Source: Candidatus Eiseniibacteriota bacterium (GTDB lineage Bacteria > Eisenbacteria > RBG-16-71-46 > CAIMUX01 > WJJG01). Taken from it: a stretch of DNA of 32,339 bases. The notes under the pieces are model-generated. The model was not told the DNA's origin and ran no database searches. It saw only the letters and a list, made by a program, of their open reading frames with translations. This document shows positions 851 through 31,300 of this stretch, piece by piece (the stretch's first letter is position 1; each line of letters begins with the position of its first letter). A program made the position numbers and the translations under genes. The stretch lies in assembly GCA_023129715.1 (NCBI GenBank), contig JAGMBO010000041.1:1-32339 (forward strand). Reading direction: 5' to 3'.

Positions 851-3800
851 CTACTTCAAGAGAATCAGTTTCGTTCCGTGCGATTCGCGGTTGACGGTCA
901 AGCGCGCGAAATAGACTCCGACAGGTTGATTGCGAGCCTCCCAGTCGATGCGATGCCAGCCGGGGCGCTGCCATTCCCGATCTGCCAGCCGCTCGATCAG
1001 CCGTCCGCTCAGATCGAAGATCTCGCAACTGACCTGCGCGCTGCCGCTCAGGCGATAGCGTAGCGCCGTGCCGCCGCGGAACGGATTGGGCGCGGGCCGG
1101 TCGAGCAAGACGCCCACTGGGCGGCGGGTGTCGCGCATCGGCGCCGCACTGAGACCCCCGTCGGTCAGCGCGGTCTCTTCATAGGTCACGGTCACCGCCG
1201 TGCCGGCCTCGGGAGTGCGAATCTGCAGGAACCGGAAGTTGTTCGGATAGGGAACGTCCATCGGCAGGGTCAGTGGCTGCCAGGCCTGCCATTCGACAAC
1301 CTTGAGATCGTCGAACCACGCGTGCGCCGCCCCTGCGGCGGGGCGGTCGAGATTGCAGCGGACGTTGAAGTACTCGGCGCCGCCCACGGGATCGAAGTCG
1401 GCGGTGTACCAGGTCCAATCGCTGGTCCCATCGACCGGATCCCCGGCATCCAGAGTGACGATCTGACTCCAGGTGTAGCGCTGGTTGTAGAAGCGCAGGG
1501 AGAACTTCGCCCCCGCGGCGTTCTCGGTCTTCATCCACCCGTTGATGCCGTAGCAGAGCGACGCATCCGCCGGCAGGTGTTTCTCGAGCATCGTGATCAC
1601 ATTGTCGCTGTCCTCGGGATAGCGCAGCAGCGCCAGGCCGTGTGCGCCTTCGTAGAAGACCACATCGTCAAGCCATTCGCCGCCGCTGTTGAGGTTCCAC
1701 ATGTGGTGGCCCTCGTCTTCTTCGAAGCGGCCGAACCAGAGCACCTCCCGCCCCCAGCGCACCTCGCACCCACTGGGCGATACACCTGCGAGCGCGGTAA
1801 TCGCCGATAAACTGCCGTCGCCGGCAAGCGCGATCGGCTGGGAAACGTAGTCACTGGCAAGCAGCGTCAGCGCCGCGGTGCTCTCTGTAGAGGAGACCTC
1901 CGGATAGGCGTCGGCGGGATCGAGGAAGATCGTGCCGGTCAGAACCATCGGGTCGACCCCGACCCAGGCCCCGAGCTGGCGCGAGTAGTCGGCCATCCGG
2001 TCGAGGATCTCGCGTCCCGGCCGCCCGCTGGAGGGCACCGGAACGTAGTGGTCGATAAAGACGGGCTTGAACGTCCAGCCGAGTATGCCGCTCTTGTCCG
2101 CCCGCGCGCGCAGCACGATGGTCGGCATCGTCTCGGGGTAGTAGAGGTCGAACATGAAGTTGCCGAGGCTGTGGGCGATCAGGACACCGTTGTAGACCTC
2201 GAAGCCCTGCAGCACGTGCGGGTGGGCATTCAAGACGGCCGCCGCGCCGAGATCGACCGCCCGGTAGCGCAGTTGCCGGTCGGATTCACCCGGCCAGATG
2301 CGGAACTTGAATTCCTGCGCTTCGGATTCGGGAACGAAGGGCGGGCAGTTCTCGACGCTAATGGGAGACGTTGCTGTCGTCCGGCCCCCGAGGTAAGAAC
2401 CGCCGCCGAGGCCCCGAGCCTCGGGCGGCGCGGTCTCGTATTCCTCTCCGCTATGCGGAAAGGCGATCACGACATCAGCGAGACTCTCGGCCTGGGCGAT
2501 CGCCCGCTCGATGTTCGGTTCGAGCCAGTATCCGAACCCGCACTTGTCGACCCCGGCATCGAGGAAGGGCTGGTAGTTGTACTCGCGCCCGGTGCGATTG
2601 CAGAAGTTGACGAATCCGAAGCGCACACCGTCGTGCGTCGCGTAGCAGGGCTGATGGGCGAAGTAGTCGTTGATACCCGACCCACCATGCACGATGCCGA
2701 CGCTATCGAAAACAGCGTGGGTCTGCAGCAGACCCTCGAGACCATAGTCGATGATGTGGTTGTTGCCCGTCGAGGCAACATCGACACCCGCGTAGACCAG
2801 CCCGGCGACATTCTCGGGGCTGGTGCGGAAGACGACACTCTTCGTTGGATGGCGTTCTCCGCGATCGGTGAAGGCACACTCGGCATTGACCACCGTGATG
2901 TCGGCCGACCCGCCCAGGATCTCGAGGGTCGGCTCCCAGAGATACTCGACGCCATAGGTATCGATCAGCCCGCCCGGATTCTCATAGGCCCGTCCCATGA
3001 AGATATCACCGGTGAAGTTGATGCTGACCACCCCGCCCCCGCTGCCTGGTTCGACAGCCACCTGGCAGGTATCGCGACCGAACAGGCCGGTGTCATCGGT
3101 GACATCCAGGGAGACGGTGAAGGTGTAGTCGGCCGTCGCCGTGAAGCTGTGGGAGGGGTTGGCGGCGTCGCTCGTCGTCCCGTCGCCGAAGTCCCAGAGA
3201 TAGGTGTGCGTGCCGCTGTCCGGGTCGTCGACCAGGCTCTGGAACGTGACCTCCAGGCGATAGAGCGGCTCCCCCGACCCGGATGCAGGCAATCCCGCCG
3301 GAAGGCTCCCATCCGGCCGGCGCGCCGCAGCCAGCAGTCGCTCAGCCTCACCGGCGCTCAGCCGCCAGGCAGCACCCAGGATCACCTCGATCGCAACGCA
3401 CGGCGCCTGCGGCAGCTCGGCAGTGACGTCGTAGATCTCATCGAAGACGGTCTTGCCGTGGGAGGTGCCGTCGCGATCGTTGACGAAGATCAGCCGGGTG
3501 ATTTCGGGAAGATAGCCCCAGGTGTCAAACCAATCGCGTCCGACCGCGAAGCGATAGGGATGCCACTCGCCGGTCTCAAAGGCGCCTTGATAGACGACGT
3601 TCCAACGATCGGAGAGCACGAGCTGCTCGCCCGATACACAGTAGAAGAGCACGTTCTCGCTCGCATCTCCCACCCCGAAGGCGTGCAGCTCGCCGAGATC
3701 CTCGGTGTAGATCGCGGCCTGAAAGACCGTCTCCATACTCAGAGAATGGGCTGTGATCGGCAGCTCCTTCCAGGTGTTGCCCCACAGGCGCAGCGCGTAG

Positions 3801-4144
3801 TCGGACCCCGCATAGGTGTTGGCCGACTGCACCGCCCAGGCGTCGGGATCGAAGTCCTCGTCGTCATAGCTCTGTAGGGGCGCACTGCCGCTCTCGAAGT
3901 CGGCCAGCACGATCGCCCGGCTGCCCCCAGACGAGGGCGCCTCCGCCGGCGAGGGGAGAGCGAGAGAGGTGGTCGGCGTGACATCCGCGAGGACGGCGGT
4001 AGGCGTGGCGGGTGTGAGACCGACCGCCGCCGGGGGGGCGGCCAGCGCGACGAGCAGAACGGCCATCAGAGCGCCGCAGCCCCTCCCATGGAAGCGGGTG
4101 CATGTCCAGCAGGCCCTGGCATCGAGGTGAAATCCGTGGAACAT
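851..4144 (-). CDS. Secreted CapA-fold (poly-gamma-glutamate synthesis CapA-like) metallophosphatase with PKD and FlgD-Ig-type C-terminal domain
   Basis: A 1097-residue exported multidomain protein. The hydrophobic signal core is at about residues 24-42, after an unusually long n-region holding Arg and Cys residues; an internal Met27 start lacks a positive n-region and a good ribosome site. About 75-250 is a jelly-roll/lamin-G-like module of unknown ligand. About 295-368 is a PKD domain ('YLWDFGDGTTSDAANPSHSF'). About 370-690 is a CapA-type metallophosphoesterase-fold domain with its usual motif series: 'TGDIFMGR', 'NAECAF', 'GNNHIIDYG', 'AFPHSGEEY', 'NAHPHVLQGFE' and 'HSLGNFMFD', so the metal site looks intact. 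A second jelly-roll-like module spans about 825-980. The C-terminus starts at 'PAPNPFRGG' and ends 'GVYFARL...KLILLK', typical of FlgD-Ig/T9SS-type-A-like sorting domains. CapA homologues usually sit in capsule operons; none is seen here, so polymer or phosphoester hydrolysis at the surface is inference. Confidence 0.85.
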   Translation of the reverse strand: MFHGFHLDARACWTCTRFHGRGCGALMAVLLVALAAPPAAVGLTPATPTAVLADVTPTTSLALPSPAEAPSSGGSRAIVLADFESGSAPLQSYDDEDFDPDAWAVQSANTYAGSDYALRLWGNTWKELPITAHSLSMETVFQAAIYTEDLGELHAFGVGDASENVLFYCVSGEQLVLSDRWNVVYQGAFETGEWHPYRFAVGRDWFDTWGYLPEITRLIFVNDRDGTSHGKTVFDEIYDVTAELPQAPCVAIEVILGAAWRLSAGEAERLLAAARRPDGSLPAGLPASGSGEPLYRLEVTFQSLVDDPDSGTHTYLWDFGDGTTSDAANPSHSFTATADYTFTVSLDVTDDTGLFGRDTCQVAVEPGSGGGVVSINFTGDIFMGRAYENPGGLIDTYGVEYLWEPTLEILGGSADITVVNAECAFTDRGERHPTKSVVFRTSPENVAGLVYAGVDVASTGNNHIIDYGLEGLLQTHAVFDSVGIVHGGSGINDYFAHQPCYATHDGVRFGFVNFCNRTGREYNYQPFLDAGVDKCGFGYWLEPNIERAIAQAESLADVVIAFPHSGEEYETAPPEARGLGGGSYLGGRTTATSPISVENCPPFVPESEAQEFKFRIWPGESDRQLRYRAVDLGAAAVLNAHPHVLQGFEVYNGVLIAHSLGNFMFDLYYPETMPTIVLRARADKSGILGWTFKPVFIDHYVPVPSSGRPGREILDRMADYSRQLGAWVGVDPMVLTGTIFLDPADAYPEVSSTESTAALTLLASDYVSQPIALAGDGSLSAITALAGVSPSGCEVRWGREVLWFGRFEEDEGHHMWNLNSGGEWLDDVVFYEGAHGLALLRYPEDSDNVITMLEKHLPADASLCYGINGWMKTENAAGAKFSLRFYNQRYTWSQIVTLDAGDPVDGTSDWTWYTADFDPVGGAEYFNVRCNLDRPAAGAAHAWFDDLKVVEWQAWQPLTLPMDVPYPNNFRFLQIRTPEAGTAVTVTYEETALTDGGLSAAPMRDTRRPVGVLLDRPAPNPFRGGTALRYRLSGSAQVSCEIFDLSGRLIERLADREWQRPGWHRIDWEARNQPVGVYFARLTVNRESHGTKLILLK

Positions 4145-9127: not shown

Positions 9128-12100
9128 ATGAAGCTTTCGCGGAGAGGGTTCCTGGTTGCGGCAGGAGCGACCGCCGGCGGCGGCGTCCTATCGAAGCTGG
9201 GGCTCGACCTAGGTCCGTCGATTGCCCATGCCGAGGCGCTCAAGACGCGCTACGCCCGGGAATCGACCACGATCTGCCCCTACTGCGGGGTGGGCTGCGG
9301 TCTCATCGTCTCGACGATGAACCGCAATGTGATCAATGTGGAGGGCGATCCCAGCCACCCGATCAACAAAGGCGCGCTCTGCTGCAAGGGCCAATCGCTC
9401 TACCAGGTGGCGACCAGCCCCCGACGCCTGACCAAGGTCATGTATCGGGCGCCGCGGAGCACCGCGTGGGAGGAGGTCTCCTGGGAGTGGGCCATCAACC
9501 GTATTGCCGATCGAGCCAAGGCGACGCGCGATGCCACCTTCACCAAGAAGGATGACCAAGGACGCGTCGTCAACCGCACCCACGCGATCGGCGCACTGGG
9601 CGGCGCCGCCCTCGACAACGAGGAGTGCTACCTCTACGGCAAGCTGATGCGCGCCCTTGGCTTGGTGTACGTCGAACACCAGGCGCGAATATGACACTCG
9701 GCCACTGTCGCCGGTCTGGCGGAAAGTTTTGGCCGTGGCGCGATGACCAACCACTGGACGGACATCGCCAACTCCGATTGCATCATGATCATCGGCTCCA
9801 ATGCCGCCGAGAATCACCCGCTCTCTTTCAAGTGGGTGATGAAGGCGGTCGAGAAGGGAGCCAAGCTGATCAACATCGATCCGCGCTTCACGCGCACCTC
9901 ATCGAAGGCGGACATCTACGCACCGCTGCGTTCGGGAACGGATATCGCCTTCATCGGCGGTCTGATCCGCCACGTCGTCGAGAATGAGCTCTATCACAAG
10001 GACTACATTCTCAACTACACGGACGCCGCGTTCATCGTCGATGAGAAGTTCGACTTCTCCGACGGGCTCTTCAGCGGCTATGACGCCTCGAAACGCAAGT
10101 ACGACTCCGCGGCCGGCGGCTGGCGGTATGCCTTCGATACCGACGGCAACCCGAAGCGTGATCCGACCATGCAAGACCCGCGCTGCGTGCTGCAGCTGCT
10201 GCGCAAGCACTACGCGTCCTACACCCCGGAGAAGATGTCCGAGGTAACCGGCATGCCGGTGGAGAAATTCCACGAGGTCGCCAACGCCTTCTGCGCAACG
10301 GGCACGCCGGAGAAGTCGGCGACGATCATGTATGCTATGGGGACAACCCAGCACACCTACGGCACGCAGAACGTGCGCAGCTACGCCATGCTGCAGCTCT
10401 TGCTGGGAAACATCGGCATCGCCGGCGGTGGAATCAACGCCCTGCGCGGCGAGTCCAATGTGCAGGGCTCGACCGACTATGCGCTGCTCTACCACATCCT
10501 GCCCGGCTACCTGAAGACCCCGCGGGCGAGCAACACAAGCTTGAAGGCCTATTTGAAGAAGTGGACGCCCAAGAGCCTGTATGGCGATAAGTCGGCGAAC
10601 TGGTGGCAGCATACACCGAAGTACATGGTCAGCCTGCTTAAAGCCTACTGGGGCGATCGGGCGACGAAGGACAACGGGTTCGCCTATGACTATCTGCCGA
10701 AGCTCGACGAGGGGACAATCTACACGCACATCGGCATGTTCGAGGCGATGGACGAGGACCGCATCAAGGGCCTCTTCTGCTTCGGGCAGAACCCGGCCGT
10801 CGCCGGACCCAATGCTCGCAAGGAACGCCGGGCGCTCGGCAAGCTCGACTGGCTAGTGGCGGTCGACCTCTGGCAAACCGACACGATGGACTTCTGGAAG
10901 CGTCCCGGTGTGGACCCGAAGACGATCGATACCGAGGTCTTCGTCCTGCCGGCGGCCTCTTCGATCGAGAAGGAGGGGTCGATCAGCAACTCCGGCCGCT
11001 GGATGCAGTGGCGCTACAAGGCAGTCGATCCGCCGGGGGTTGCCAAGTCGGACCTCTGGATCGTCGACAAGCTCTTCCTCGCGCTGCGTGAGCGCTACGA
11101 GCAGGGCGACACCTTCCCCGAGCCGATCGTCAACCTGCACTGGAACTACGGTCACGAGGATGAGCCCGACGTCCACATGGTCGCCAAGGAGTGCAACGGC
11201 TACGCCATGCGCGACTATGAGATGAAGGGCAAGACGATCAAGAAGGGCGAGCAGATCCCAAGCTTTGCCTGGCTGACCGATGACGGCTCGACCTGCAGCG
11301 GCAACTGGCTCTACTGCAACAGCTACACCGAGGCGGGCAATATGGCCGCTCGGCGCGATGACACCGACGCGGCCAACGGCATCGGCCTCTATCCGAAGTG
11401 GGCGTGGTGCTGGCCGGTCAACCGCCGCATCATTTACAATCGCGCATCGGTCGACACGCAGGGCAAGCCCTGGAATGACAAGAAGTGGGTCATCCGCTGG
11501 AACGAGAGCCTCAAGAATGGCAAGGGTGGCTGGGAAGGCGATGTCCCCGACGGAGGCTGGGCCCCGGACACGAAGTACGCGTTCATCATGAAGCCGACCG
11601 GCCATGCCCAGCTCTTCGGCTATGGCCGGGTCGACGGCCCCTTCCCGACGCACTACGAGCCGGTCGAGTCGCCGGTGAAGAACGCGATGTACTCCCAGCA
11701 GAACAACCCGGCGATCAAGCTCTGGGCTTCGGAGATGAACGAGCTCGGCACCGCGGACAAGTACCCGATCGTCTGCACGACCTATCGTGTCGTCGAGCAC
11801 TGGCAGGCGGGCCAGATGACCCGCAACCTGACCTGGGTCTCCGAGCTGATGCCCGATATGTTCATCGAGATGTCCCGGGAGCTGGGCCGCGAGAAGGGCA
11901 TCGCCAACGGCGATCGAGTGAAGATCAGCACGGCGCGCGGCAGCATCGTCGCCTTCGCGGTGGTGACGCCCCGCTTCAAGCCCTTCAAGCTCAATGGCAA
12001 GCTGGTGCACCAGATCGGAGTGCCCTGGCACTGGGGTTACTCCGGGATCGCGGTGGGCGACAGCGCCAATGTGCTCACCCCGCACGTGGGCGACGCCAAC

Positions 12101-12154
12101 ACGATGATCCCCGAGTACAAGGCATTCCTCTGCGATGTAGAGAAGGAGGTGTAG
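9128..12154 (+). CDS. fdnG: Formate dehydrogenase-N-type catalytic subunit, selenocysteine-containing
   Basis: A 1008-residue molybdopterin (or tungstopterin) oxidoreductase oxidising formate to CO2, exported by Tat and acting on the outer face of the membrane. The Tat signal is 'SRRGFLVAAGATAGGG'. The [4Fe-4S] ligands are C50-x2-C53-x3-C57 and C85/C86, followed by Lys87. The in-frame TGA at 9692-9694 encodes Sec189: the reading continues 'HQARI-U-HSATVAGLA' and 'SFGRGAMTNHW', the exact FdnG/FdoG active-site context, including the catalytic His after Sec. Total length matches E. coli FdnG (1015). Without recoding the gene would appear as a 188-residue fragment plus a downstream 803-residue fragment from Met 9743; nothing else is damaged. 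FdhE is upstream and the FeS subunit starts two bases after the stop. The symbol follows homology and the enzyme may be closer to FdoG or another FDH clade. Confidence 0.95.
9692..9727 (+). promoter_or_regulatory. Bacterial SECIS element with UGA selenocysteine codon
   Basis: Starting at the UGA (9692-9694), the RNA can fold with an apical stem CGCC (9709-9712)/GGCG (9718-9721) capped by the loop GGUCU (9713-9717). A U-G pair follows (9708/9722). After a small internal loop, ACU (9704-9706) pairs with AGU (9725-9727). The GGUCU apical loop at this distance from the UGA is the known SelB-recognised feature of the E. coli fdhF and fdnG SECIS. The host must carry selA/B/C/D elsewhere. Confidence 0.88.
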
Positions 12155-13269: not shown

Positions 13270-13338
13270 GACATCTTCCAGCGGTGTGCATCTTGTGTAT
13301 CATTTGTCACGTTCAACCAAGAACGGAGGTTGCAGACT

Positions 13339-14292
13339 ATGCGTATTGCAACTCTGATCGCTGTCCTGGCGCTTCTCTGCGGCACCACCGCTATGGCGGA
13401 CAAGGTGCCCGACGCGAAGCCCTGGGGCTTCGATCTGACGGGCCTCCGCAACATCACCGAGGTCGAGCCCAATGACACCTGTCCTGGGCAGGAAATCGCC
13501 TGCGGCGATGTGGTCGATGCCTATCTGGGTCCCCACGACCCCGAGGACCTCGACTACTTCACCTTTTACGCCACTGCGGGGCAGGTCTTGACCATCGGGA
13601 CGGACGCGGGCCCTGACCCGGACGCCTATGACACTCAGCTCACGCTCTACAATGCCGACTGCTCGACCGAGCTGGACTACGACGACGATGCCGGCCCCGG
13701 CTGGTATTCGCTGATCAGCGGATTCGTGGCGCCTTACGACGGGTACTACGTGGCCATGGTTAATCCATACCCGTACAGCACCCTGTACGAGGGGAACTAC
13801 ATTCTCTTCGTGACCTGTGAGACGCCTCAGGAGCCACCGGTCAACGATACCTGCGACGGCGCGATCGTCATCGAGCGCTGCACAAGCGGTCTGATCGAGG
13901 GTGATCTGACCTGGGCGACCGACGACTACAACCTTGGCTACGGCAACGACTGCACCGGCTACACCTCGGCAGGCCTGGATGTCACTTACGTGATGACCCT
14001 GCTGGCCGGTGACATCGTCTCGATGTTCTACTCGGGCAACTTCGATGAGACATTCTACATCGTGACCGACTGCAGTGACTTCGAGGCGACTTGCGTTATC
14101 GGAGCCGATGACACCGTCGGCTCTGGCGAGCAGATCGACTGGGTGGTCCTTGCGGACGGGGTCTACTACCTGATTGCCGATGCCTACGGCACGGGCAACG
14201 GTGGCCCGTTCACGATCGACTACTCGATCGAGTGCCCGGTCACTCCGACCGAGCCCACAACCTGGGGTAAGGTCAAGTCGATGTTCGAGTAG
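13339..14292 (+). CDS. Secreted PPC-type two-domain protein with C-terminal WGxIK tag
   Basis: A 317-residue exported protein of unknown function. ATG 13339 follows GGAGG (13325-13329) at nine bases; an upstream in-frame TTG lacks a ribosome site. The signal peptide is 'MRIATLIAVLALLCGTTAMA', with cleavage after Ala20 likely. Residues about 36-160 look like a bacterial pre-peptidase C-terminal (PPC) domain, opening 'EVEPNDTC' and holding 'LDYFTFYATAGQVLTI' and 'YDTQLTLYNADC'. Residues about 168-300 form a second related domain starting 'VNDTCDGAIVI'. The paired cysteines suggest disulfides and an extracytoplasmic location. No catalytic domain is attached. The protein ends 'TPTEPTTWGKVKSMFE', a tail shared in register with two other secreted proteins in this window. 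It has its own strong promoter and a terminator-like hairpin downstream, so it is monocistronic. Confidence 0.9.
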   Translation: MRIATLIAVLALLCGTTAMADKVPDAKPWGFDLTGLRNITEVEPNDTCPGQEIACGDVVDAYLGPHDPEDLDYFTFYATAGQVLTIGTDAGPDPDAYDTQLTLYNADCSTELDYDDDAGPGWYSLISGFVAPYDGYYVAMVNPYPYSTLYEGNYILFVTCETPQEPPVNDTCDGAIVIERCTSGLIEGDLTWATDDYNLGYGNDCTGYTSAGLDVTYVMTLLAGDIVSMFYSGNFDETFYIVTDCSDFEATCVIGADDTVGSGEQIDWVVLADGVYYLIADAYGTGNGGPFTIDYSIECPVTPTEPTTWGKVKSMFE

Positions 14293-14372: not shown

Positions 14373-14420
14373 CTTCTTATGCCATCCGCCTTCCGTTGTC
14401 GCCATTCCCGCCCAATATCG

Positions 14421-14452
14421 CCTCTCCATCTGCAACCCAACAGATGGAGAGG
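14421..14452. terminator. Second, 12-bp perfect hairpin before the double-propeller gene
   Basis: CCTCTCCATCTG (14421-14432) and CAGATGGAGAGG (14441-14452) form a 12-bp perfect stem with an 8-nt loop, followed by GCTTTC. It lies 45 bp before the ATG at 14498, so it may be a second terminator or a leader structure of the downstream gene. Confidence 0.55.
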
Positions 14453-14497
14453 GCTTTCAGCCGGGCGGCACACCCGCCCCAAAGGGAGGTAACGATC

Positions 14498-16906
14498 ATG
14501 ACAGGACGTAGGTTCTACGCAGGTTTGGTGGTAGCGATCGCGGTCGCCGCCGTGGCGGCATCCGCGGCCGGCGCCTACGAGTGGTATCCCGTGCCGATCG
14601 ATAGCGTCGAGCACACCGTCTACGAGCTCCAGTTCGGAGGCATCTCTGGCTATGCGGGTACCGACATCGGGGTCTTCCGTGGCGAGCTCGCGCGCAACTG
14701 GAGTGGCATGGGACTCGGCTATCCCGGTTTGGGCGGCTACACGATCCTCTATGACGAGGGACCAGGGTGGGTGAAGCATACGATCGCTGGCACCCCCATC
14801 CCGGGTGCGACCGGGGTCGCGGTCGGTGACGTCGATGACAGCGGCTATGCCGATATCATCGTGGCGGCCAAGGATCCCAGCGACCAGGTGGTCTGGTACC
14901 AGAACCCGCTCCCCGATCCGATGACACCCTTCTGGACCCCCCATGACGTCGAATCGCCCGCCCTGGGGGCCCGCGAGGTGATGCTCGCCGACATCGATGG
15001 TGATCTCGATCTCGACATCGCCGCGGCACTCCGCGACGAGGACCGCATCGTCTGGTATGCCGCCGGGGACGACGCCGAGCCGGTCTCCTGGACCCGCCAC
15101 GACATCGGGCCCGCCTCAGGACCCCGCGGGGTCTATGTCGCCGACATCAACGGCGACACCCGCCCCGACGTCGTCGCCGGCTCGATGAACGATGGGACGG
15201 TGCTTTGGTTCGAAGCCCCACCCGACCCGACCCATGAACCCTGGCTCCCCCACATCATCGACACCGACCTGGCCGGCGTCAAAGGCGTCTTCGCCTGCGA
15301 CATCGATCTGGATCTGGATCTCGACATCGTCGCCGCGGGTCGCGACGCCGGCCTAGTCGTCTGGTACGAGCAGCGTAGCACCGACCCCGAGGAGTGGATC
15401 CGACACACCATCGATCCCGACATCCCCGGCGCCGTGAGCATCTGGTGCGGGGATCTGGTCGGGGACGCGCGGCCCGAGGTTGCCGTCACCGCCAAGACCG
15501 CCGGTTGTGTTGCCGTCTATGAGCAGCCCGAGGATCCGGGCGATGTCTGGGAGAAGACGGTCGTCGATCCAGATCTCACCGAGGCCTGCCCGATCTTTGC
15601 CGGAGACTTCGACGGCGATGGGCGCACCGATCTGGTCGCCGCGGGCAAGGCGGCAAGTGTGGTCGCCTGGTACCGGGCGCCCGATGAGAGCGGCCTTACC
15701 TGGCAGAAGCAGGTCATCGATGATGCCGTCGGCAGCTCGATGGGAGTCACGGCCGGAGATGTCGACGGTGATGGCGACTGGGATATCGTCGCCACCACCT
15801 GCGTGGAAGGCGAGGTCATCTGGTACGAGAACGACCAGCGCGATATCTACTGCGGCTTCACCGACGGCACCGGCATGTGCGAATCGGATGGAGTCTACAA
15901 GTGGCACGACACGCGGCAGGAATGGGTCGTCAACTGGTGGTGCCCGCGGCCCTACTTCCTGGCCGAACATCCCCATGTCCCGGGGCAGTACTTCTGTGGC
16001 AATCACATCGGGCTCTACACCTCCACCGACATGGTCTCCTGGGAGGATGTTGGCGGCGGCGTGCTCCCCGACTCGGTGCGCTGCATCTGGTTCAGTCCGA
16101 TCGATCCGTTCGACATCATGGTCGGCACCGAGCGCGGCGTCTATCGCTCGAATCCGGCCGATCCCGGCTGGGTTCCGGTGGCGGGGATCCCGGCGCTGCC
16201 GGTCTACGACATCGAGACCGGCTGGCACCAGATGGGCCCCTACGACCCGGCGATCTTCGTCTCGATCGGCAACGGCAGCTTCAACGATGGCGTTCTCTGC
16301 TCGCACGACATGGGACAAACCTGGGAGCGGATTCTGACGATTCCTGAACCGACCGATCTGTTGCAGGACTACACGGAGCAGCACCATCCGCTGGTGATGT
16401 TCGTCGGCACCCGCGGCCACGGGATCGTGCGTGTCGACTGCTGTGGCGAGCTGCTCGGCGACTTGAACGCGGGATTGCCGAATCTGACCGTTCATTGCAT
16501 GCGCTACGATCCCTTTATCGACACCCCGGCGATCTATGCGGGCACCGAGGAGGGACTGCACCTCTGTATGCTGCTCGAGCAGTCGGCGGTCGGAGGCGAA
16601 GTCGCCGACCGGCCGGCAGAGAGGCATACGCTGGTGCTCAGCCGAGCCTGGCCGAATCCCTGGAGCAGCGATGTCGCCTTCCGTCTGGCCGGCGGGCTCC
16701 CCGATGGCCCGGTCACCCTGCGCGTCTTCGACCCGGCGGGGCGGCAGGTCTGGTCGGCCCATTCCTCGCAGCCGACCGGTGGAAGCGTAACCTTCTCCTG
16801 GAGCGGGCGGGATCGGGGCGGCCGCAACGTGCCCGACGGCATCTACTTCTACCGCTTCGAACTCCCCGGGCAGACACTGGATGGCAAGATCATCCGTCTG
16901 GAATAG
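14498..16906 (+). CDS. Secreted double beta-propeller protein (seven VCBS/FG-GAP-like repeats plus Asp-box region) with FlgD-Ig-type tail
   Basis: An 802-residue exported protein starting at ATG 14498 behind GGGAGG; the longer in-frame extension upstream has no signal and no ribosome site. The signal peptide covers about residues 1-26. Residues about 92-446 contain seven repeats of roughly 50 residues. Each has a 'W-x-x-H-x-I' strand, a 'GDVDGDGDWDIV'-type calcium loop and a closing 'VVWY' strand. Seven copies fit one seven-bladed propeller. The fifth loop is degenerate ('GDLVGDARPEVA'). About 450-700 is a second beta-rich region with Asp-box motifs ('STDMVSW' and 'SHDMGQTW'), as in sialidase/VPS10-type propellers. 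The C-terminus ('AWPNPWSS' to 'GIYFYRFELPGQTLDGKIIR') is a FlgD-Ig/T9SS-A-like sorting domain. Binding or adhesion at the cell surface is likely; no enzymatic residues are evident. Confidence 0.88.
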   Translation: MTGRRFYAGLVVAIAVAAVAASAAGAYEWYPVPIDSVEHTVYELQFGGISGYAGTDIGVFRGELARNWSGMGLGYPGLGGYTILYDEGPGWVKHTIAGTPIPGATGVAVGDVDDSGYADIIVAAKDPSDQVVWYQNPLPDPMTPFWTPHDVESPALGAREVMLADIDGDLDLDIAAALRDEDRIVWYAAGDDAEPVSWTRHDIGPASGPRGVYVADINGDTRPDVVAGSMNDGTVLWFEAPPDPTHEPWLPHIIDTDLAGVKGVFACDIDLDLDLDIVAAGRDAGLVVWYEQRSTDPEEWIRHTIDPDIPGAVSIWCGDLVGDARPEVAVTAKTAGCVAVYEQPEDPGDVWEKTVVDPDLTEACPIFAGDFDGDGRTDLVAAGKAASVVAWYRAPDESGLTWQKQVIDDAVGSSMGVTAGDVDGDGDWDIVATTCVEGEVIWYENDQRDIYCGFTDGTGMCESDGVYKWHDTRQEWVVNWWCPRPYFLAEHPHVPGQYFCGNHIGLYTSTDMVSWEDVGGGVLPDSVRCIWFSPIDPFDIMVGTERGVYRSNPADPGWVPVAGIPALPVYDIETGWHQMGPYDPAIFVSIGNGSFNDGVLCSHDMGQTWERILTIPEPTDLLQDYTEQHHPLVMFVGTRGHGIVRVDCCGELLGDLNAGLPNLTVHCMRYDPFIDTPAIYAGTEEGLHLCMLLEQSAVGGEVADRPAERHTLVLSRAWPNPWSSDVAFRLAGGLPDGPVTLRVFDPAGRQVWSAHSSQPTGGSVTFSWSGRDRGGRNVPDGIYFYRFELPGQTLDGKIIRLE

Positions 16907-17164: not shown

Positions 17165-17227
17165 CCTTTGTGCAGTCGTCATCTGCCGCATACGTGCATC
17201 TGTGACGCCAATGGAGGTAATCGCACC

Positions 17228-17908
17228 ATGATGGCATTTGCTCTAGCCGTCGCTCTGGTGGGCATCCTGCCCAATCCGGTGCCCTCCAGCGGGCTGGGCA
17301 TCGATGTCGCCCACTCAGGGGGAGCCCTGGCCAAGGAAACCACCCCCGAGATCGTCTGCATCCAGGAGGGCATGCTCAACGGCTACAAGGTCCCCGCCGA
17401 TACGGCGGAGGTCGCCAACGATTGCGTCGAGGCAGGCTCGGCGCACGTCGTGCGCGCGATCTGGTGCGGCGGCTACACCGAGTGGGAGCCTGGGGACCCG
17501 CACATCACGACCTTCCACGTGCGTTTCTATGAAGAGCTCGACTGCAAGCCCTTCTCGCTGATCGCCGAGTACCTCTCTGCCGAACCCGACACCTTCTCCA
17601 TGGGCTATTGCACTGACGGGCTCCCCTGCTATCAGTACGAGCTCGAGGTCGACGTCCCGGTCGGTCCCGACCCATTCTGGTTCTCGGTGCAATCGGCCTT
17701 CGCCGGCAAGGATCGCTACCCGCCCAAGTGGGGACGCCTCGGCGATGAGGCCGACTTCGGATGCGGGAATCGCGTCAGGCCGGAAAACGACATCGAGTGG
17801 CTGCCGCTCGATCCGATTCACACCGATGTCAGCCAGAAGTTCGTCGTCGAGCATCCGACACCGGCCGAAGACGGGACTTGGGGCGCCATCAAGGCCCGGT
17901 ACTGGTAG
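17228..17908 (+). CDS. Small secreted protein of unknown function with C-terminal WGxIK tag
   Basis: A 226-residue protein. I place the start at ATG 17228 (second ATG at 17231), eleven bases after GGAGG in 'atggaggtaatcgcacc'; an upstream in-frame start adds a Cys-rich stretch without a ribosome site. The N-terminus 'MMAFALAVALVGILPNPVPS' is a short signal peptide with a weak positive n-region. The mature part is acidic, rich in aromatic residues and has about seven cysteines, with beta-like segments such as 'ITTFHVRFYEELDC' and 'CYQYELEVDVPVG'. No catalytic motif or known family is recognised. It ends 'TPAEDGTWGAIKARYW', in register with two other secreted proteins here. The TPR-CHAT gene starts 138 bp downstream on the same strand. 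Confidence 0.85.
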   Translation: MMAFALAVALVGILPNPVPSSGLGIDVAHSGGALAKETTPEIVCIQEGMLNGYKVPADTAEVANDCVEAGSAHVVRAIWCGGYTEWEPGDPHITTFHVRFYEELDCKPFSLIAEYLSAEPDTFSMGYCTDGLPCYQYELEVDVPVGPDPFWFSVQSAFAGKDRYPPKWGRLGDEADFGCGNRVRPENDIEWLPLDPIHTDVSQKFVVEHPTPAEDGTWGAIKARYW

Positions 17909-17967: not shown

Positions 17968-18046
17968 GAGGAGCGCCACCAGGATCACAACGTACCGCGC
18001 CCGACACCGAGGGGAGCACAGATCGGCGGTGAGCGGGGGAGTCTGG

Positions 18047-21000
18047 ATGCCTCGATCCGATCTTGCTCTCTGCCCACTGAACCTCAGAGCGGCGCTGCTG
18101 GTTGCCTTGATCGCATTTCTCGGACTCTCGGCCACACTACTCCCCGGCTGCGGTGAGCAGTACCCCGCCCCGGCGCGCGAGGAGGTTCACTTTCCCCAGG
18201 CCGAGGCCGCCCGCCGTGCCGGTGACTACGACGCCGCGATCGCCGCCTATCGCCGCAGCATCGCCGTCGAACCCGATGATCCGCGTCCTTACTTCGGTAT
18301 CGTCGAATCGCACGCTCGCCGCGGGGACCTTACGGCGGTCGAAGCGCTGCTCGATTCCCTCGCCTTAGCCGACCCACACAACGCCAGCGTCCACTACGGC
18401 CTCGCCTGCCTGGCCGTCAAGCGCCAGGACTTGGAGACCGCGTTAGCCGAGGCGCGGCAGACGATCGCCCTGGACGCCGGTCTCGGCCACGGACATCTGC
18501 TGCTCGGCAGCGTGCGCTACTACGCGGGCGAGAGCGAGCAGGCGCTGGAAGCCTGGGAGCGGGCCCGCGCGATCTTCCGCCGCCAGGGGGACCGCAAGTA
18601 CGAAGCCTGGTCACTCAATCGCACGGCGCTTGTCAGGCGGGAACTGGGAGATCTGCGCCAGGCGTTGGGGGAATTCCAAGAGGCGCTCCGGCTTCATCGC
18701 GAGCTCGGGGACCGTCAGGCCCAGCAGCTCGTTCTCGGCAATATCGGACTCGCGCAGGCCGACTTGGGCGACCTAGCCGGAGCGTTGGAGGCTTTCCAAG
18801 AGGCCCTCGACCTGGCCTGGGAGATCGGCGACCGCGAGGGCGCCTGCTGGGGACTGACCAACCTCTCGTATGTCGCCAATCTCACCGGCCAGCATCATCA
18901 GGCGATCGCCTATGCCGACTCGGCGATTGGCCTTGCCCGGCAAACCGGCAACCGGATCGATGAGGTCACCGGCCTGGTCTCACGGGCGACGGCGAGCCTC
19001 GACCTGGGCGATCCGGTCGGGGCCTTGCAGGATGCGGGCGAGGCGCTCGCCCTTGCCGATTCGATCGTCGACCCCCGACATGGCGCTGCGGCGCTCACTG
19101 TCCGCGGGCGCGCGGCGCTCAACCTGGGTCGCCTCGAGCAAGCCCGCGAGAGCTACGCCCGCGCCAACGATCGCTTCCACGAAATGGGCATCGAAACCGG
19201 CTCCTGGGAGGCACGCATCGGTCTGTGCGGCGTCGCGATCCAGGAAGGGGATGCCGGCGGCGCGATCGAACTTGCGGAGGCGACCATGGCCGACTGCGCC
19301 GCCGCGGAATACGCGGAGGGAGAGGAATACCTAGCGCTGACGCTCTGTGAACTGAAGCGCGAGCAGGCAGACGCCGAGGTGCTGCTCGACCCGGCGCAAC
19401 GGAATGCCCTGCTGGACGAGGCCCTTCAGCTCGCCTCCCGGGCGGTCGAGCTGAGCCGGCGCGATGGGCGGCGCAAGCGTGAGGCGATTGCCCTCGCGCG
19501 CCGGGCGCGGGTGCATCTACTGGCCGCCAACCATGACATCGGAAACGCAGACACGGAGGCGCAGATCCAGGCAGCGCGCCGGGATGTCGGTGACGCCTGC
19601 CGGCTGGCGACAGACATTCGCAGTCCGGAGGTCACCTGGGAGTGCGAGCTGGTCGCCGGTGATGTGGCCACGGCCGACATGGAACTCAATCGCGCCTGCA
19701 GCCACTACCGGGCCGCCATGGACGCGCTCGAGGAGATCCGGCGGGACTTGCGCCTCGAGGAGTTCAAGGCAGCCTACCTGGCCGGACGCATCGATCTCTA
19801 CTACAAGACCGCCGCCCTGCTCGCCCGGCGCGGAGATCCGCAGGGTGCGTTCGCGGTCTGCGAGCGGGCCCGAGCGCGAGCCTTCCGCGACTTGCTCGCC
19901 GCCAGCCCGCGCCCCCTGGCGCCGCAAGTCGACGCGGCCCTGGCGCAGGAGCGCGCCACTATCGAGACGCAGCTGCGCACATTGCAGGCCTCGCGCTCGG
20001 CGATGGCGGCGCGCGGCATCGCGGACCGTGATCGGATCGCCGAGATGGACGGTGAGATCCACAGGATGAAGCAGCGCTGGGAGGAGGTGCGTACCGAGAT
20101 CCTGCTGGCCGATCCGCAGTATGGGATGCTGATCTCAGCTCCCACGCACGCGCCCCTGGAGATCGTCGAACGCCTGAACCCGGACGAGGCGCTGCTCGAA
20201 TACCTGCTCGGCCCCGACTCCTCGCTCTGCTTCCTTGCACGGGCGGAAGGCATCACGGTTGTGCCCCTGCCGGTGGGACGGGCGGCGCTGGCCGGTCAGA
20301 TCCGGGCGTTGCGGAGGCCTATGCAAGCCCCCCGCAGCCTGGCAACGCTGGAGTTCGATCTGGAACTCGCCCATCGGATCCGCGCGGCGATCTTCGATCC
20401 CCTGATTCCCCACCTAACCGGCGTGACGCGCGTGCTGGTCGTGCCGGATGGCGCGCTCCACTACTTGCCGTTCGGGGCCCTGCCGCTGCCGGAAGATTCG
20501 AGCCTACAGACCCTCGTGGAAGATTCCCCTTCGAGCGACGTTCCATGGCGGCGGGCGGCATCGCGGACCGTGACCGGATCGCCGAGAGCGGTGCAAGACC
20601 CCACGGCCGCCAACCGGGGGGACGCTGATCAGCCGGCGTCCGGAGCGCTTCCGCTGCACGCCGAGTTTCGCGACATCCGCTTCCTCGAAGACCTCTTCGT
20701 GCTCGAGGTGCTCCCTTCAGCCAGTCTGATCGCACGCGCCGGAGAGGCGGAGCATGAAACCGGATCCGGTCGCGCCCTTGCAGACGATGGCATTCATCCA
20801 TTCTCAAGCGGGTTGCTGGCCATGGGTCATGCCCCAACAGACCCCTCCATCGGATGGGGGGCAACCGCCCGCCCCCTGGCCCATGTCGAGCAGGAGATCC
20901 AGGCGATCGCACGAAGTGTCCCCGATGCGGTCGTTGCCGTCGATAGCGCGGCCAGCGAGCTGCGGTTCAAGACCACGGCTCCCCGTTTCGCGCGCCTGCA

Positions 21001-21463
21001 CCTTGCCACGCATGGCAACATCGATGAGGCGGTTCCCCTCTACTCCGGCCTGCACCTCGCCCCCGACCCCGCCGGCCGCGAAGATGGGGCGCTGCACGCC
21101 TTCGAGATACTCGAGCTTCCCCTGCGGTGCGAACTGGTCACGTTGAGCGCTTGCCAGACCGGTCTCGGACGCCTCTACGCCGGAGAAGGCCCTCTGGGGC
21201 TGGCCCGCGCGTTCTTCTACGCGGGAGCCGATCAGGTTCTGGTCAGTCTCTGGAGTGTCGATGACGCCTCAACGGCAATGTTGATGGGGCAGTTCTACGA
21301 GAACATGACTCAAGGAGACGGCGCGGCGGTTGCCTTGCGCAAGGCCCGCCGAAGCCTGCGCGGCGAGTTCCGCACGGGATCCGGCGGTGAGCGGGCGCTC
21401 AGCTACGCCCATCCCTACTTCTGGGCTCCCTTCGTACTCATCCGCGCCGCGGGATCCGACTAG
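18047..21463 (+). CDS. TPR-CHAT (caspase HetF-like) protein with lipoprotein signal
   Basis: A 1138-residue protein. ATG 18047 follows a G-rich GGGGGAG site; GTG 18029 is an alternative adding six residues. The N-terminus is a hydrophobic helix ending in the lipobox 'LLPGC' (Cys35), so it is probably a lipid-anchored, extracytoplasmic protein. Residues about 45-560 are tetratricopeptide repeats of the 'A-x4-G-x2-A-x4-Y/F' type ('LGDLRQALGEFQEALRLHRE', 'LGDLAGALEAFQEALDLAWE'). About 600-680 is a coiled-coil-like linker. About 720-1138 is the CHAT domain: caspase-type His989 in 'LHLATHG' and Cys1036 in 'VTLSACQTGLG', followed by 'GLARAFFYAGADQVLVSLW' and the C-terminal 'HPYFWAPFVLI', all diagnostic. 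Both catalytic residues are present, so protease activity is plausible. A linker at about 820-870 contains an out-of-frame copy of upstream DNA. Substrate unknown. Confidence 0.92.
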   Translation: MPRSDLALCPLNLRAALLVALIAFLGLSATLLPGCGEQYPAPAREEVHFPQAEAARRAGDYDAAIAAYRRSIAVEPDDPRPYFGIVESHARRGDLTAVEALLDSLALADPHNASVHYGLACLAVKRQDLETALAEARQTIALDAGLGHGHLLLGSVRYYAGESEQALEAWERARAIFRRQGDRKYEAWSLNRTALVRRELGDLRQALGEFQEALRLHRELGDRQAQQLVLGNIGLAQADLGDLAGALEAFQEALDLAWEIGDREGACWGLTNLSYVANLTGQHHQAIAYADSAIGLARQTGNRIDEVTGLVSRATASLDLGDPVGALQDAGEALALADSIVDPRHGAAALTVRGRAALNLGRLEQARESYARANDRFHEMGIETGSWEARIGLCGVAIQEGDAGGAIELAEATMADCAAAEYAEGEEYLALTLCELKREQADAEVLLDPAQRNALLDEALQLASRAVELSRRDGRRKREAIALARRARVHLLAANHDIGNADTEAQIQAARRDVGDACRLATDIRSPEVTWECELVAGDVATADMELNRACSHYRAAMDALEEIRRDLRLEEFKAAYLAGRIDLYYKTAALLARRGDPQGAFAVCERARARAFRDLLAASPRPLAPQVDAALAQERATIETQLRTLQASRSAMAARGIADRDRIAEMDGEIHRMKQRWEEVRTEILLADPQYGMLISAPTHAPLEIVERLNPDEALLEYLLGPDSSLCFLARAEGITVVPLPVGRAALAGQIRALRRPMQAPRSLATLEFDLELAHRIRAAIFDPLIPHLTGVTRVLVVPDGALHYLPFGALPLPEDSSLQTLVEDSPSSDVPWRRAASRTVTGSPRAVQDPTAANRGDADQPASGALPLHAEFRDIRFLEDLFVLEVLPSASLIARAGEAEHETGSGRALADDGIHPFSSGLLAMGHAPTDPSIGWGATARPLAHVEQEIQAIARSVPDAVVAVDSAASELRFKTTAPRFARLHLATHGNIDEAVPLYSGLHLAPDPAGREDGALHAFEILELPLRCELVTLSACQTGLGRLYAGEGPLGLARAFFYAGADQVLVSLWSVDDASTAMLMGQFYENMTQGDGAAVALRKARRSLRGEFRTGSGGERALSYAHPYFWAPFVLIRAAGSD
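20003..20045 (+). repeat. 43-bp direct repeat inside the CHAT gene, copy 1
   Basis: This copy is read in frame as 'MAARGIADRDRIAE' in the coiled-coil-like linker before the CHAT domain. It matches 20545-20587 at 41 of 43 bases. Confidence 0.9.
20545..20587 (+). repeat. 43-bp direct repeat inside the CHAT gene, copy 2 (different frame)
   Basis: This copy lies 542 bp after copy 1, so the offset is not a multiple of three. It is translated in another frame as 'WRRAASRTVTGSPRA' within a poorly conserved CHAT linker. It differs from copy 1 at two bases. Confidence 0.9.
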
Positions 21464-27096: not shown

Positions 27097-27215
27097 CGCC
27101 TCGCGTCTGAGAGTGCGCTGTCCGGTGGATCACCTGCATGCGGGGTGTGGGGACCGGGAATCCGGGCAGGCGAGCGACAAGTGGAGACAGTCCCGCAAGC
27201 ATCCGGAGGACCGTC

Positions 27216-28241
27216 ATGCGTTGGTTGGTACTGTGCCTTGTCCTGCTCGGTCTCACCACCTCTGCCATGGCTGTCGACCTGAGCAATCGCCAGATCCTGC
27301 CCCCCAAGGGTGAGCAGGGTGATCAGATGAGCGACGGCCGGGAGGGGGGCGAGTCCTATGCCGATGCCCTTCTCATTCCCGGCTTGCCCTACGCGGACAC
27401 TGGTGCGACCTGCGACAATCGGGATGACACCACGCCCGCTTGCGGCTACAGCATGGCCAATGACGTCGTCTACAAGTTCGTCCCGACCGAGGATGCATTC
27501 ATGTCTGTGTATCTGTGCGGCTCGGGATACGACACGATCCTCGAGATCCAGGACGGCATCGGCATCCCGGTCGCCTGCAACGACGACTTCTGCGGCCTGC
27601 AGTCCGGCATCGAGTTCTTCCCCGTCGTAACCGGTCATGAGTACTACATCATCGTCGACGGCTACAGTAACGACTGCGGCTCCTACATTCTCGAGATCGC
27701 CTTGGAGGAAGAGTGCGTATTCGAGTGTCCCCCCGGTGCGATTCTCGAGGGCGAGCCCGACTGCCACGATGACTACGTCGACACGTACAATGGCGGTTGC
27801 AACAGTGACCCCGAGGTCTTCCAGCTCATTTGCCCCACCTCGGGCAACCAGACGATCCTGTGCGGCACCAGCGGCACCTACCTCTTCGAGGGCAGTGGAT
27901 ACCGCGACACCGACTGGTTGCAGGTCTACGGCACGGGCGGCCTGATGAGCGCGAGCTGCATCGCGGAGTTCCCGGTGCAGCTACTCTTCATCCACGGCAC
28001 CGATTGCATCGAGCCGGAGTACGACGCGATCCGCGCCGACCGTTGTGAATTCGTCATCGTCGGCCGCAATGTCGACCTCGGCGAGCTCGTCTGGGTCTGG
28101 GTCGGACCGAGCGTCTTCAGTGGAGTCCCCTGCGGCGCCGACTATGTGCTGACGCTCGATGGCATCTATGCAGGTCCCGGCTGCCAGCCGACCCCCGCGC
28201 GGGAAGATAGCTGGGGACGGATCAAAGGTATGTTCCGCTAG
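27216..28241 (+). CDS. Secreted PPC-like protein with C-terminal WGxIK tag
   Basis: A 341-residue exported protein of unknown function. ATG 27216 follows GGAGGA (27205-27210); longer in-frame starts have no ribosome site. The signal peptide is 'MRWLVLCLVLLGLTTSAMA', cut after Ala19. Residues about 45-165 resemble a PPC-type beta-sandwich ('MANDVVYKFVPTEDAFMSVY', then 'SGYDTILEIQDG' and 'YYIIVDGYSNDCGSYILEI'). A Cys-rich linker ('CVFECPPGAILEGEPDC') leads to a second beta domain (about 190-320). More than fifteen cysteines suggest many disulfides. The end, 'TPAREDSWGRIKGMFR', aligns without gaps with the tails of the proteins ending at 14292 and 17908. It is convergent with the caspase-like gene, with 82 bp between them. 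Confidence 0.9.
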   Translation: MRWLVLCLVLLGLTTSAMAVDLSNRQILPPKGEQGDQMSDGREGGESYADALLIPGLPYADTGATCDNRDDTTPACGYSMANDVVYKFVPTEDAFMSVYLCGSGYDTILEIQDGIGIPVACNDDFCGLQSGIEFFPVVTGHEYYIIVDGYSNDCGSYILEIALEEECVFECPPGAILEGEPDCHDDYVDTYNGGCNSDPEVFQLICPTSGNQTILCGTSGTYLFEGSGYRDTDWLQVYGTGGLMSASCIAEFPVQLLFIHGTDCIEPEYDAIRADRCEFVIVGRNVDLGELVWVWVGPSVFSGVPCGADYVLTLDGIYAGPGCQPTPAREDSWGRIKGMFR

Positions 28242-28323: not shown

Positions 28324-31300
28324 CTACCGCACCACGACGACGGGTCTCGTCAAACGCTCACCGGCCGTTTCCAGGCGCAAGAAGAAGATCCCTGAACCAA
28401 GTGCCCGCCCCTCCTCGTCCCGGCCATCCCAAGTCAAGGTCTGCGCGCCCGCGGGCCGGACCTCATCCAGCAACCGGCGGACGAGACGCCCACCCGCGTC
28501 GTAGACCTTGAGCGTCGCCCGCGTGTTGGCCCCGCCCTCGGGAATCGCATAGGCGATGCGCACCGTCCCCGGCAGCGAGGTCGGCGTGCTCGAGACTATC
28601 TGCAGGCGCATGACCGCCTCACCGGGTCGCCCGGACTGCCCGTCGGCGAGCTCTTGAGGCGCCCAACAGGCCACCGGCCAGGCGCCAATCAGGCCACAGC
28701 CCTGCTGATCGCAGGGAGTGTAGTTCCACAGCCCCAGATCCCCGCCCTCCGCATCGCAAAAGTAGGGATCCATGGAGAAGTTCCCGTCGCGGCCGAGCTG
28801 TTCGGCAATCACACCCGTCCAGTCTCCCTCGGCGTTGCCGTAGATGTCGCAGCAGGAAAAGTCGGCGCCACTACCCGCGGTCAGGTGGACCGCCTCTCCG
28901 TCGACCGAAAAACCGAGAATGCAACGCAGCACGTCGAGCTGGGCCTCGTCTCCGTAGATACAGGCGCCAGAGTCTGCCGCGCTGCAATGGAAGGTACAGG
29001 CCTCTAGCACAATGGCCGCCGAGTCGCCGCCGACCGCGCCACCGAGCGCGGCCGCGTTGCCCACGAAGGTGCACTGCTCGAATGCGGGCGCGGCCTCCGC
29101 GATGGCTAGCACCGCTCCTCCGACGCCCGGGCTCTCATTCCCACTGAAGATGCAGCCGCTGATCGAGGGAGCCGATCCGGTGCACAAGATCGCACCGCCG
29201 TTCGCGGCATAGCCATCGCGAATCGTAATCCCCTCGATGCGGCATCCGGCCGGCTCTCCGCTGTCAAAATGGAATCCGCGGTGCTCGTCCCCGGCGCTTC
29301 CTTCGCAGGCAATGATGCAGGCGGCCGCATCTCCACGCAGCGAGCGCAAGCAGAGTGCGGTGCCCAGGCAGTCGAGATCGCGGTTGCCCGCGCCACGGTA
29401 GACACCGTCGGCGAGGTAGACGGTATCTCCGGCGGCCGCCGCATCGAGGGCCGTCTGGATCGTCGGCCACATACCGGCGCCATCCGCGCGCACCAGCGCC
29501 AGGCCCGCCCCGCAGGGATTGGGATCGCAGGCCGCATGTCCGTAGATCCAGTCGCCGCCGAGTCCCGCGCACTCGGGCTCGCTGAGCAGCTGGCAGGTCT
29601 CCCCTATACAGCATGCATAGGCGCTGCAGGGATCAGGGTCACAGGCGTCGATCGTCTCGTACCAGATCCCACCGAGCAGGCCGCACTCCGCTTCGCTCGC
29701 CAGGGTGCAGGCCTCACCTACACAGCAGGCTCTCGGAGTACAAGGATTGGGATCGCAACTCGCGACACCCGACTGCCAAACTCCGCCCATGGCAACACAC
29801 TCCTGGTGGGAGACGAGTTGGCATTCCGCGCCCAGGCAGCAGGCGGCGTTCTCTTGCGGATGGCAGGCCACGCCATCGGTGTAGATACCCAGAGCTCCGT
29901 AGCAACTCACCGGAAAGGTGACGCCGTCGGGATTGCCAAACCCCGTCTCTCCGGCCTGCTCCCACGCGCAGAGCGCCAGCGTCCCGGTGGTATAGGCGTA
30001 GCTCGCGAACCAGTAGACCGCCTCGAAGTCGCCCGACCAGCGGTCGGCATGCATCATGGTCACACCTTCGTTCGGGCCCGGCCACCCGGGAGAAGCCGAT
30101 TGAACCCCGCCGCCATTGCAGGGCCCCCAGGCGCCAATGCCGAGCTGCCCGGGGTCGTAGTCACCGAGCCCGAAGGTCACCCGGTTCCAGCTCCGCGGCT
30201 CACCCCAGGCGGCAATCACATACCAGGTCGCGGTCTCCTCGGGACCGGCCGGATCGATCCGGGTGACTTGTTGGCTACTCGCCTCGATCCGGAACTCGTC
30301 TTCGTACCGCGCGCACCAGTCGACCCCATCGGTGTAGGTCAATCCCGCCGGTGCGTGAGCGATCAAGACACCGCCAAAGAGATTCATCGAATCGGGCATA
30401 CAGATGTACTCGTCGCAGACCTCGACACCGGGCAAGAAAATCCCGCCCGCCGCCGTGCACGCCGGCAGCGTCCGCAGATAGCAGACATCGCCGATGCAGC
30501 AGGCCCGCGCGGCACAGGGGTTGGGGTCACAGGAGGCGTATTCCTCCATGAGCTGACCGCCGGCCGCCACGCAATCCACGTAGGCAAGGACCTGACACTC
30601 ATCACCGATACAGCACGCGTAGGGGGTGCAGGGATCCGGTTCACAATCGATCCCATCATGCCAGGCGCCCCCGCTGTCGTTGCAGACCGGCAGAATGGTG
30701 TGCACGCAATCATCACCGAGACAACAGGCGCCCCAATCGCAGGGATTGGGGTCGCAGCTGGCGATGGTATCGAAGATCTCTCCACCCGCGCGCATGCAAT
30801 CGAATGGATTCAGCATCTGGCATACGGATCCCGTGCAACAGGGATGCGCGACACACGGCAACGGGTCGCAGCTCTCGATGCCGGGGAACCACTCGCCCCC
30901 CAGGGCGGTGCAGTCGTCCGGCGCGAGGATCTGACATGCCTCCCCAATGCAGCATGCTCCGACGGTAAACACCAACGAGAAGGCCTCATCGCCCGCGAAG
31001 CGCATGCAAGCGTTGATGGCGCAAACCGGGTAGTCGGCCAGCGCCATGTCGAACGCCTCCTTGACCGGATAGCCGACGGACATGTAGTTGAAGAGGGCGT
31101 CCTGCCAATTGAGCGAGTAGCTCCAGCAGTCATCGCACTGCGGCGTCGACATTCCGCAATAGCCCACGGTGGTCGCATTCTCGTTGGAGCCCTTGCGGAA
31201 AGCGTCGGAGAAGGTCCCGACACCGGTTCCACACAGTCCGTCACAGCTGCCGATGAAGGCAAACAGCTTCTTGTAGTAACCCGTCAACCAAAGTTCGATT

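Follow-up and report, generated by a model that had tools for sequence, protein, structure and literature searches.

The window, meaning the whole stretch of 32,339 nucleotides analysed here, is contig JAGMBO010000041.1 of a Candidatus Eiseniibacteriota genome. It encodes three exported proteins that end in the same kind of short tail, together with three exported contrast proteins whose C-terminal domains (CTDs) resemble those of the type IX secretion system (T9SS) and which do not carry the tail:

13339 to 14292, plus strand: tagged exported protein 1, coding sequence from the likely ATG (open reading frame 13330-14292)
14242 to 14289, plus strand: tail of protein 1, TPTEPTTWGKVKSMFE (pattern searches and reading frame)
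17228 to 17908, plus strand: tagged exported protein 2, coding sequence from the likely ATG (open reading frame 17168-17908)
17858 to 17905, plus strand: tail of protein 2, TPAEDGTWGAIKARYW (pattern searches and reading frame)
27216 to 28241, plus strand: tagged exported protein 3, coding sequence from the likely ATG (open reading frame 27138-28241)
28191 to 28238, plus strand: tail of protein 3, TPAREDSWGRIKGMFR (pattern searches and reading frame)
851 to 4144, minus strand: exported contrast protein with a T9SS type A/FlgD-like CTD, no tail (TIGR04183, 23.2 bits; cut-off 23)
14390 to 16906, plus strand: exported contrast protein with a FlgD-like/T9SS type A-like end, no tail (TIGR04183, 20.9 bits; cut-off 23)
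28324 to 32079, minus strand: exported contrast protein with a FlgD-like end, no tail (FlgD family, E 9e-5; TIGR04183, 13.7 bits only)

As a preliminary description of this DNA had reported, all three tails are in frame, and a stop codon follows each immediately. The host proteins otherwise differ, again as described: protein 1 (signal peptide MRIATLIAVLALLCGTTAMA) has a weak Pfam match to the PPC domain (PF04151, E 4e-5) that falls under its cut-off, protein 2 has neither a Pfam match nor a known domain, and protein 3 (signal peptide MRWLVLCLVLLGLTTSAMA) has no Pfam match. NCBIfam returns no match in any of the three, and no curated domain of Pfam or NCBIfam is common to them. An apparent tagged relative of protein 3 is present in another genome of the phylum (L026). 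An AlphaFold model of one window protein alone reached a pLDDT of only 34.6 and was discarded. The tail occurs in place of a T9SS CTD and not together with it, and the contrast proteins have the CTD without the tail. The protein at 14390-16906 also matches the C-terminal region of PorU (E 4e-6). The protein at 851-4144 contains, ahead of its type A tail, a match to the lasso-peptide epimerase MslH family (E 1e-11) that is far under the cut-off.

Across exported proteins, the tail (here the WG tail) follows the consensus [T/S]-W-G-x-[I/V/L]-K-x-x-[F/Y]-R, which in the window's own genome extends to P-[AV]-[ED]-x-x-[TS]-W-G-x-[ILV]-K-A-L-[FY]-R. The 4.83-Mb genome was searched at the DNA level with two patterns, each with its reversed form as control. 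A pattern of WGx[IV]K, four residues, and a stop codon gave 21 matches and none for the control. A second pattern, WGx[ILVM]Kxx[FY], which demands the aromatic residue and no stop, gave 58 matches versus 2 for the control; such counts are minima, since the patterns tolerate codon choice and demand W, G, K, and mostly the aromatic residue and a nearby stop. When all 58 were read, every one lay 1 to 19 residues from a stop codon, and there were no internal copies. Conservation extends to positions outside the pattern: [TS] immediately before W in 56 of 58, P at position -6 from W in 43, and R after the aromatic residue (position +9) in 42. Chance origin is therefore ruled out by the control and by the C-terminal placement, and an internal motif is ruled out by the lack of internal copies. 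Relative to the preliminary description, the proline is now placed at position -6 from W. That the tail ends at the stop holds for the three window proteins; elsewhere, the sequence often continues as FREGTD before the stop, so an exact C-terminus is optional. Groups of adjacent beta-helix-like proteins, many with the variant WGG[VL]KALFREGTD, lie on five contigs of this genome (C46, C53, C145, C163, and C182 of G000).

The tagged bodies of this genome fall into 17 sequence clusters, the biggest of which holds 30 proteins. Paralogy has multiplied the count, yet by sequence comparison at least 17 unrelated bodies have the tail, which rules out simple duplication. By a strict home-made rule, signal peptides are found in 34 of 48 complete tagged frames versus 10 of 50 untagged long frames (p 6e-7), and by a looser rule in 43 of the 48. 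The observation of the preliminary description holds and reaches further than was reported there. The description had named two findings that would speak against a tag, namely no further tagged exported proteins, or a motif just as frequent inside proteins or in cytoplasmic ones; neither was seen.

Among the families matched by tagged proteins in NCBIfam are the "choice-of-anchor" V and J domains, a ScyF/PEP-CTERM relative, and MYXO-CTERM relatives; LTD, NHL, beta-helix, PKD, fn3, and CBM domains also occur. No model of the tail itself is among the families listed for these proteins (NCBIfam; Pfam for 25 of 32), with the proviso that very short models may escape the filters. A few tagged proteins (L002, L020, L047, and L239) are lipoprotein-like, which is unusual for T9SS cargo. 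When the sequences were read, no C-terminal transmembrane helix with basic residues was found, in agreement with the earlier statement that the tail is neither LPXTG nor PEP-CTERM, and TIGR04183 matched 0 of 75 tagged proteins at E 0.01. Identity with the type A CTD was rejected on this result and on the conserved part of 10 to 16 residues, which in orthologues collected without regard to the tail follows a variable, P-rich linker.

Within the phylum, three pattern searches combined found at least one tail in 45 of 47 genomes. One of the two negative genomes (G038) nevertheless has a tail with a short extension, WGKIKATYLGDR, recovered by a tail-blind search. In the tail-blind family of lamin-tail-domain orthologues, W is present in 18 of 18, and G and K in 16 of 18 each; K is replaced by R in 2 and G by S in 2, and in some orthologues 2 to 8 extra residues follow the tail. 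Because nearly all genomes of the phylum have the tail, presence and absence there do not single out a partner gene. A wide pattern search covered 385 genomes, 338 of them outside the phylum, where coverage is sparse, with apparently one to three genomes for each phylum. Six outside lineages (G071/G219, G112/G253/G383, G115/G256, G145/G283, G167/G304, and G181/G318), and also G150, have 4 to 56 copies, and the tail loci re-read in these high-copy lineages encode exported proteins. The remaining tail-positive outside genomes have one to three copies, and in 288 outside genomes the pattern search found none. The tail is thus conserved at the protein level across phyla, and the conservation first noted among three proteins of one contig extends through the phylum and six further lineages.

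The genomes that carry the tail also carry T9SS genes. Of the 47 genomes of the phylum, 46 have SprA and all 47 have PorV-family members; neither exceeds its cut-off in any of 14 control genomes. Each genome of the phylum has 6 to 15 PorV/PorQ-family matches, which suggests several specialised carriers. In the window's own genome, a full-length PorU gene adjoins a PorV gene (G000:C133), and a PorU-like match (E<1e-60) is present in 38 of 38 tail-positive genomes tested. Outside the phylum, a strong SprA match (E<=1e-30) occurs in 41 of 50 tail-positive versus 43 of 288 tail-negative genomes (p 9e-21), an association that could be due in part to shared FCB ancestry, as the genomes are not independent and the test has no ancestry correction. 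SprA is present in 14 of 14 outside genomes with four or more tails, and every genome with at least two tails has a match at E<=1e-15. Five tail-positive genomes have no SprA match at all, and in the two that could be read (L159 and L162) the tail is a chance read. About half of the SprA-positive genomes are tail-free, among them G249, G379, G275, and G135, whose SprA is strongest; thus, T9SS alone does not require the tail. As for the carrier, PorP/SprF (TIGR03519) was not found in the window's own genome and was set aside as carrier of the tail; it is weak or missing in tail-rich genomes, and of 50 genomes tested it exceeds the cut-off in two, neither of which has the tail. A dedicated carrier did not emerge, and the number of tails has no obvious match to PorV copy number. 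Together, the tagged set has three features expected of T9SS substrates, broadly defined: a signal peptide, a genome that encodes SprA, PorV-like proteins, and PorU, and a conserved C-terminal signal. The association of the tail with T9SS is new in the present analysis, and literature searches yielded nothing that links T9SS to Krumholzibacteriota or sorting tails to Eisenbacteria. Similar tails in FCB-related genomes, mentioned in the preliminary description, fit with the presence of the WG tail in lineages that have an FCB-type T9SS.

In lineages with one tail, the tail usually resides on the same small secreted fn3-like protein, the exception being a protein of G187/G324. This protein, of about 130 residues and ending in TWGSIKA[ML]FR, is encoded at the following loci, among others:

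L164, 8034-8438: fn3-like tail protein
L165, 6336-6767: fn3-like tail protein
L166, 8403-8834: fn3-like tail protein
L168, 8472-8897: fn3-like tail protein
L169, 9164-9556: fn3-like tail protein

A tail-blind search with an HMM of the fn3 domain stripped of its tail recovered 16 short stand-alone secreted homologues from 11 families, all in SprA-positive genomes. Each of the 16 has [TS]WGSIKA-[MLI]-[FL] at, or a few residues before, its C-terminus, so that the protein is conserved in 11 families or more. Long proteins that share the fn3 domain, at least eight of them, end in a type A-like CTD. Since the domain ends in the tail in short proteins and in the type A CTD in long ones, one domain takes either signal. 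In G047 and G371 the fn3 tail gene comes immediately downstream of porD, and in G341 it is two genes away from porD; porQ is a close neighbour in G097 and G371. For 12 of the 16 homologues, the stretch read showed neither porD nor porQ adjacent to the fn3 gene. PorD belongs to the extended T9SS translocon (PMC10994853, PMC8754138). Judged from sequence, the small fn3-like protein is possibly an unnamed T9SS component. In general description it resembles P. gingivalis PorA, a T9SS cargo held on PorV-Sov (PMC8754138): both are small, secreted, and T9SS-linked, with a C-terminal signal. The PorA CTD, however, is removed.

Two classes of T9SS substrate are described, both with folded CTDs tens of residues long, and each has its own kind of outer-membrane carrier at the SprA pore: PorV receives type A substrates, and dedicated carriers such as SprF receive type B substrates (PMC12635249, PMC10994853). 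Like the WG tail, the type A CTD (TIGR04183, Por_Secre_tail) is C-terminal, is found on Sec-exported proteins of many folds in the same genomes, can follow the same fn3-type domain, and has a near-invariant Lys close to the C-terminus (PMC10994853). In both, hydrophobic residues and a basic end come after this lysine. The type A CTD, however, is a folded beta-sandwich of about 70 to 80 residues, with short ones of 43 to 55 residues in Prevotella intermedia (PMC11969387), and has motifs B, D, and E, whereas the WG tail comprises about 10 to 16 residues, has the W-G-x-I-K core, and does not match TIGR04183. For Hbp35, the same source cites the final 22 residues as absolutely required (PMC11969387). 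The type B CTD with PorP/SprF offers a precedent for an alternative T9SS signal with its own carrier; it is a folded domain, unlike the short WG tail, and PorP/SprF was not found in the window's genome.

That the tail is a genuine targeting or docking element is very probable, and the preliminary description's reading of it as a tail for sorting, anchoring, or cleavage agrees with its strictly C-terminal place on exported proteins of many unrelated folds, the choice among the three being a matter of inference. The system that reads it is probably T9SS. Somewhat better than even is the fuller proposal that the WG tail is a C-terminal targeting signal representing a third, minimal class of T9SS signal. 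Tagged proteins would cross the inner membrane by Sec export, as their signal peptides suggest; the tail would then dock on a PorV-like carrier at the SprA pore; and the protein would reach the cell surface, where the carrier would hold it or PorU would trim and attach it. Recognition by a PorV-like carrier is a tentative element of this scheme. The whole, in which a linear peptide of about ten residues with its own PorV-like carrier forms a third T9SS class, the fn3 protein belongs to the T9SS machinery, and dozens of proteins in seven lineages have acquired the tail, is rather doubtful as a conjunction. The tail may mimic the final strand of a CTD or form a short amphipathic helix.

Alternatively, the tail could dock independently of T9SS, with a separate envelope partner (an outer-membrane, surface-layer, or cell-wall protein) holding the exported proteins and T9SS co-occurring as an FCB trait. 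The roughly 43 tail-free SprA-positive genomes, the lipoproteins among the carriers of the tail, the confounding of the SprA association by FCB ancestry, and the absence of any noticed T9SS gene next to the window's tail genes are all consistent with such a partner. Against it, three genomes have the gene of the single-copy tail protein next to or close to porD and two have it close to porQ, the same fn3 domain is followed by either the tail or the type A CTD, and no genome with two or more tails lacks SprA at E<=1e-15. Independent docking is thus a possible, if unlikely, explanation. A dedicated enzyme that cleaves and attaches, akin to a sortase, exosortase, or rhombosortase and acting outside T9SS, is brought to mind by the choice-of-anchor V and J domains and the MYXO-CTERM/PEP-CTERM relatives, which elsewhere have such anchors. 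PEP-CTERM, MYXO-CTERM, LPXTG, and GlyGly-CTERM are, like the WG tail, short C-terminal tails shared by many exported proteins, including those with choice-of-anchor domains; they have a hydrophobic helix and a basic end, whereas the WG tail has neither this helix nor a basic stop-transfer cluster, and up to 19 variable residues may trail it. This makes such an enzyme improbable; PorU, which is the sortase of T9SS, occurs in the genome and would fit a T9SS signal.

The tail could instead mark proteins for quality control or degradation by a periplasmic protease or PDZ protein, which would suit its C-terminal place and the hydrophobic and aromatic residues near the end. Proteases and PDZ proteins of this kind are widespread, and the tail is nonetheless absent from most phyla; the conserved W-G-x-I-K core, the P-rich linker, the many folds, and the tolerance of 1 to 19 trailing residues also make degradation a very unlikely function. 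Finally, the 30 related proteins of the biggest cluster would be expected had the tail spread through gene duplication and domain shuffling with no function at all. This is exceedingly improbable given that one genome has 17 unrelated bodies, that seven lineages are rich in tails, that unselected positions are conserved, and that internal copies are completely absent.

If the T9SS reading is true, a peptide of about ten residues would sharpen the question of what the T9SS translocon recognises, would bring hundreds of exported proteins that have so far gone uncounted to uncultured FCB-type genomes, and would constitute a compact surface-display tag. Even if another system reads it, at least 17 unrelated proteins of one genome share a tail of the sorting type. 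A search of a full-text literature library with tail sequences found no occurrence, and the tail looks undescribed as an address label.

Two other genes of the window deserve mention. Directly downstream of tagged protein 2, at 18029-21463 on the plus strand, lies an exported lipoprotein-like TPR protein with a CHAT-type-peptidase-like C-terminal part; it was considered as a processing protease and set aside, as nothing ties it to the tail. An Rfam search of the whole window at the gathering score gave no matches, a SECIS element included. At 9128-12154, also on the plus strand, the window encodes the catalytic subunit of a formate dehydrogenase with a twin-arginine signal and an in-frame TGA at codon 189 (ARI-U-HSATVAG). 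It is likely a selenocysteine enzyme, and ORF callers split its gene at 9694/9743.
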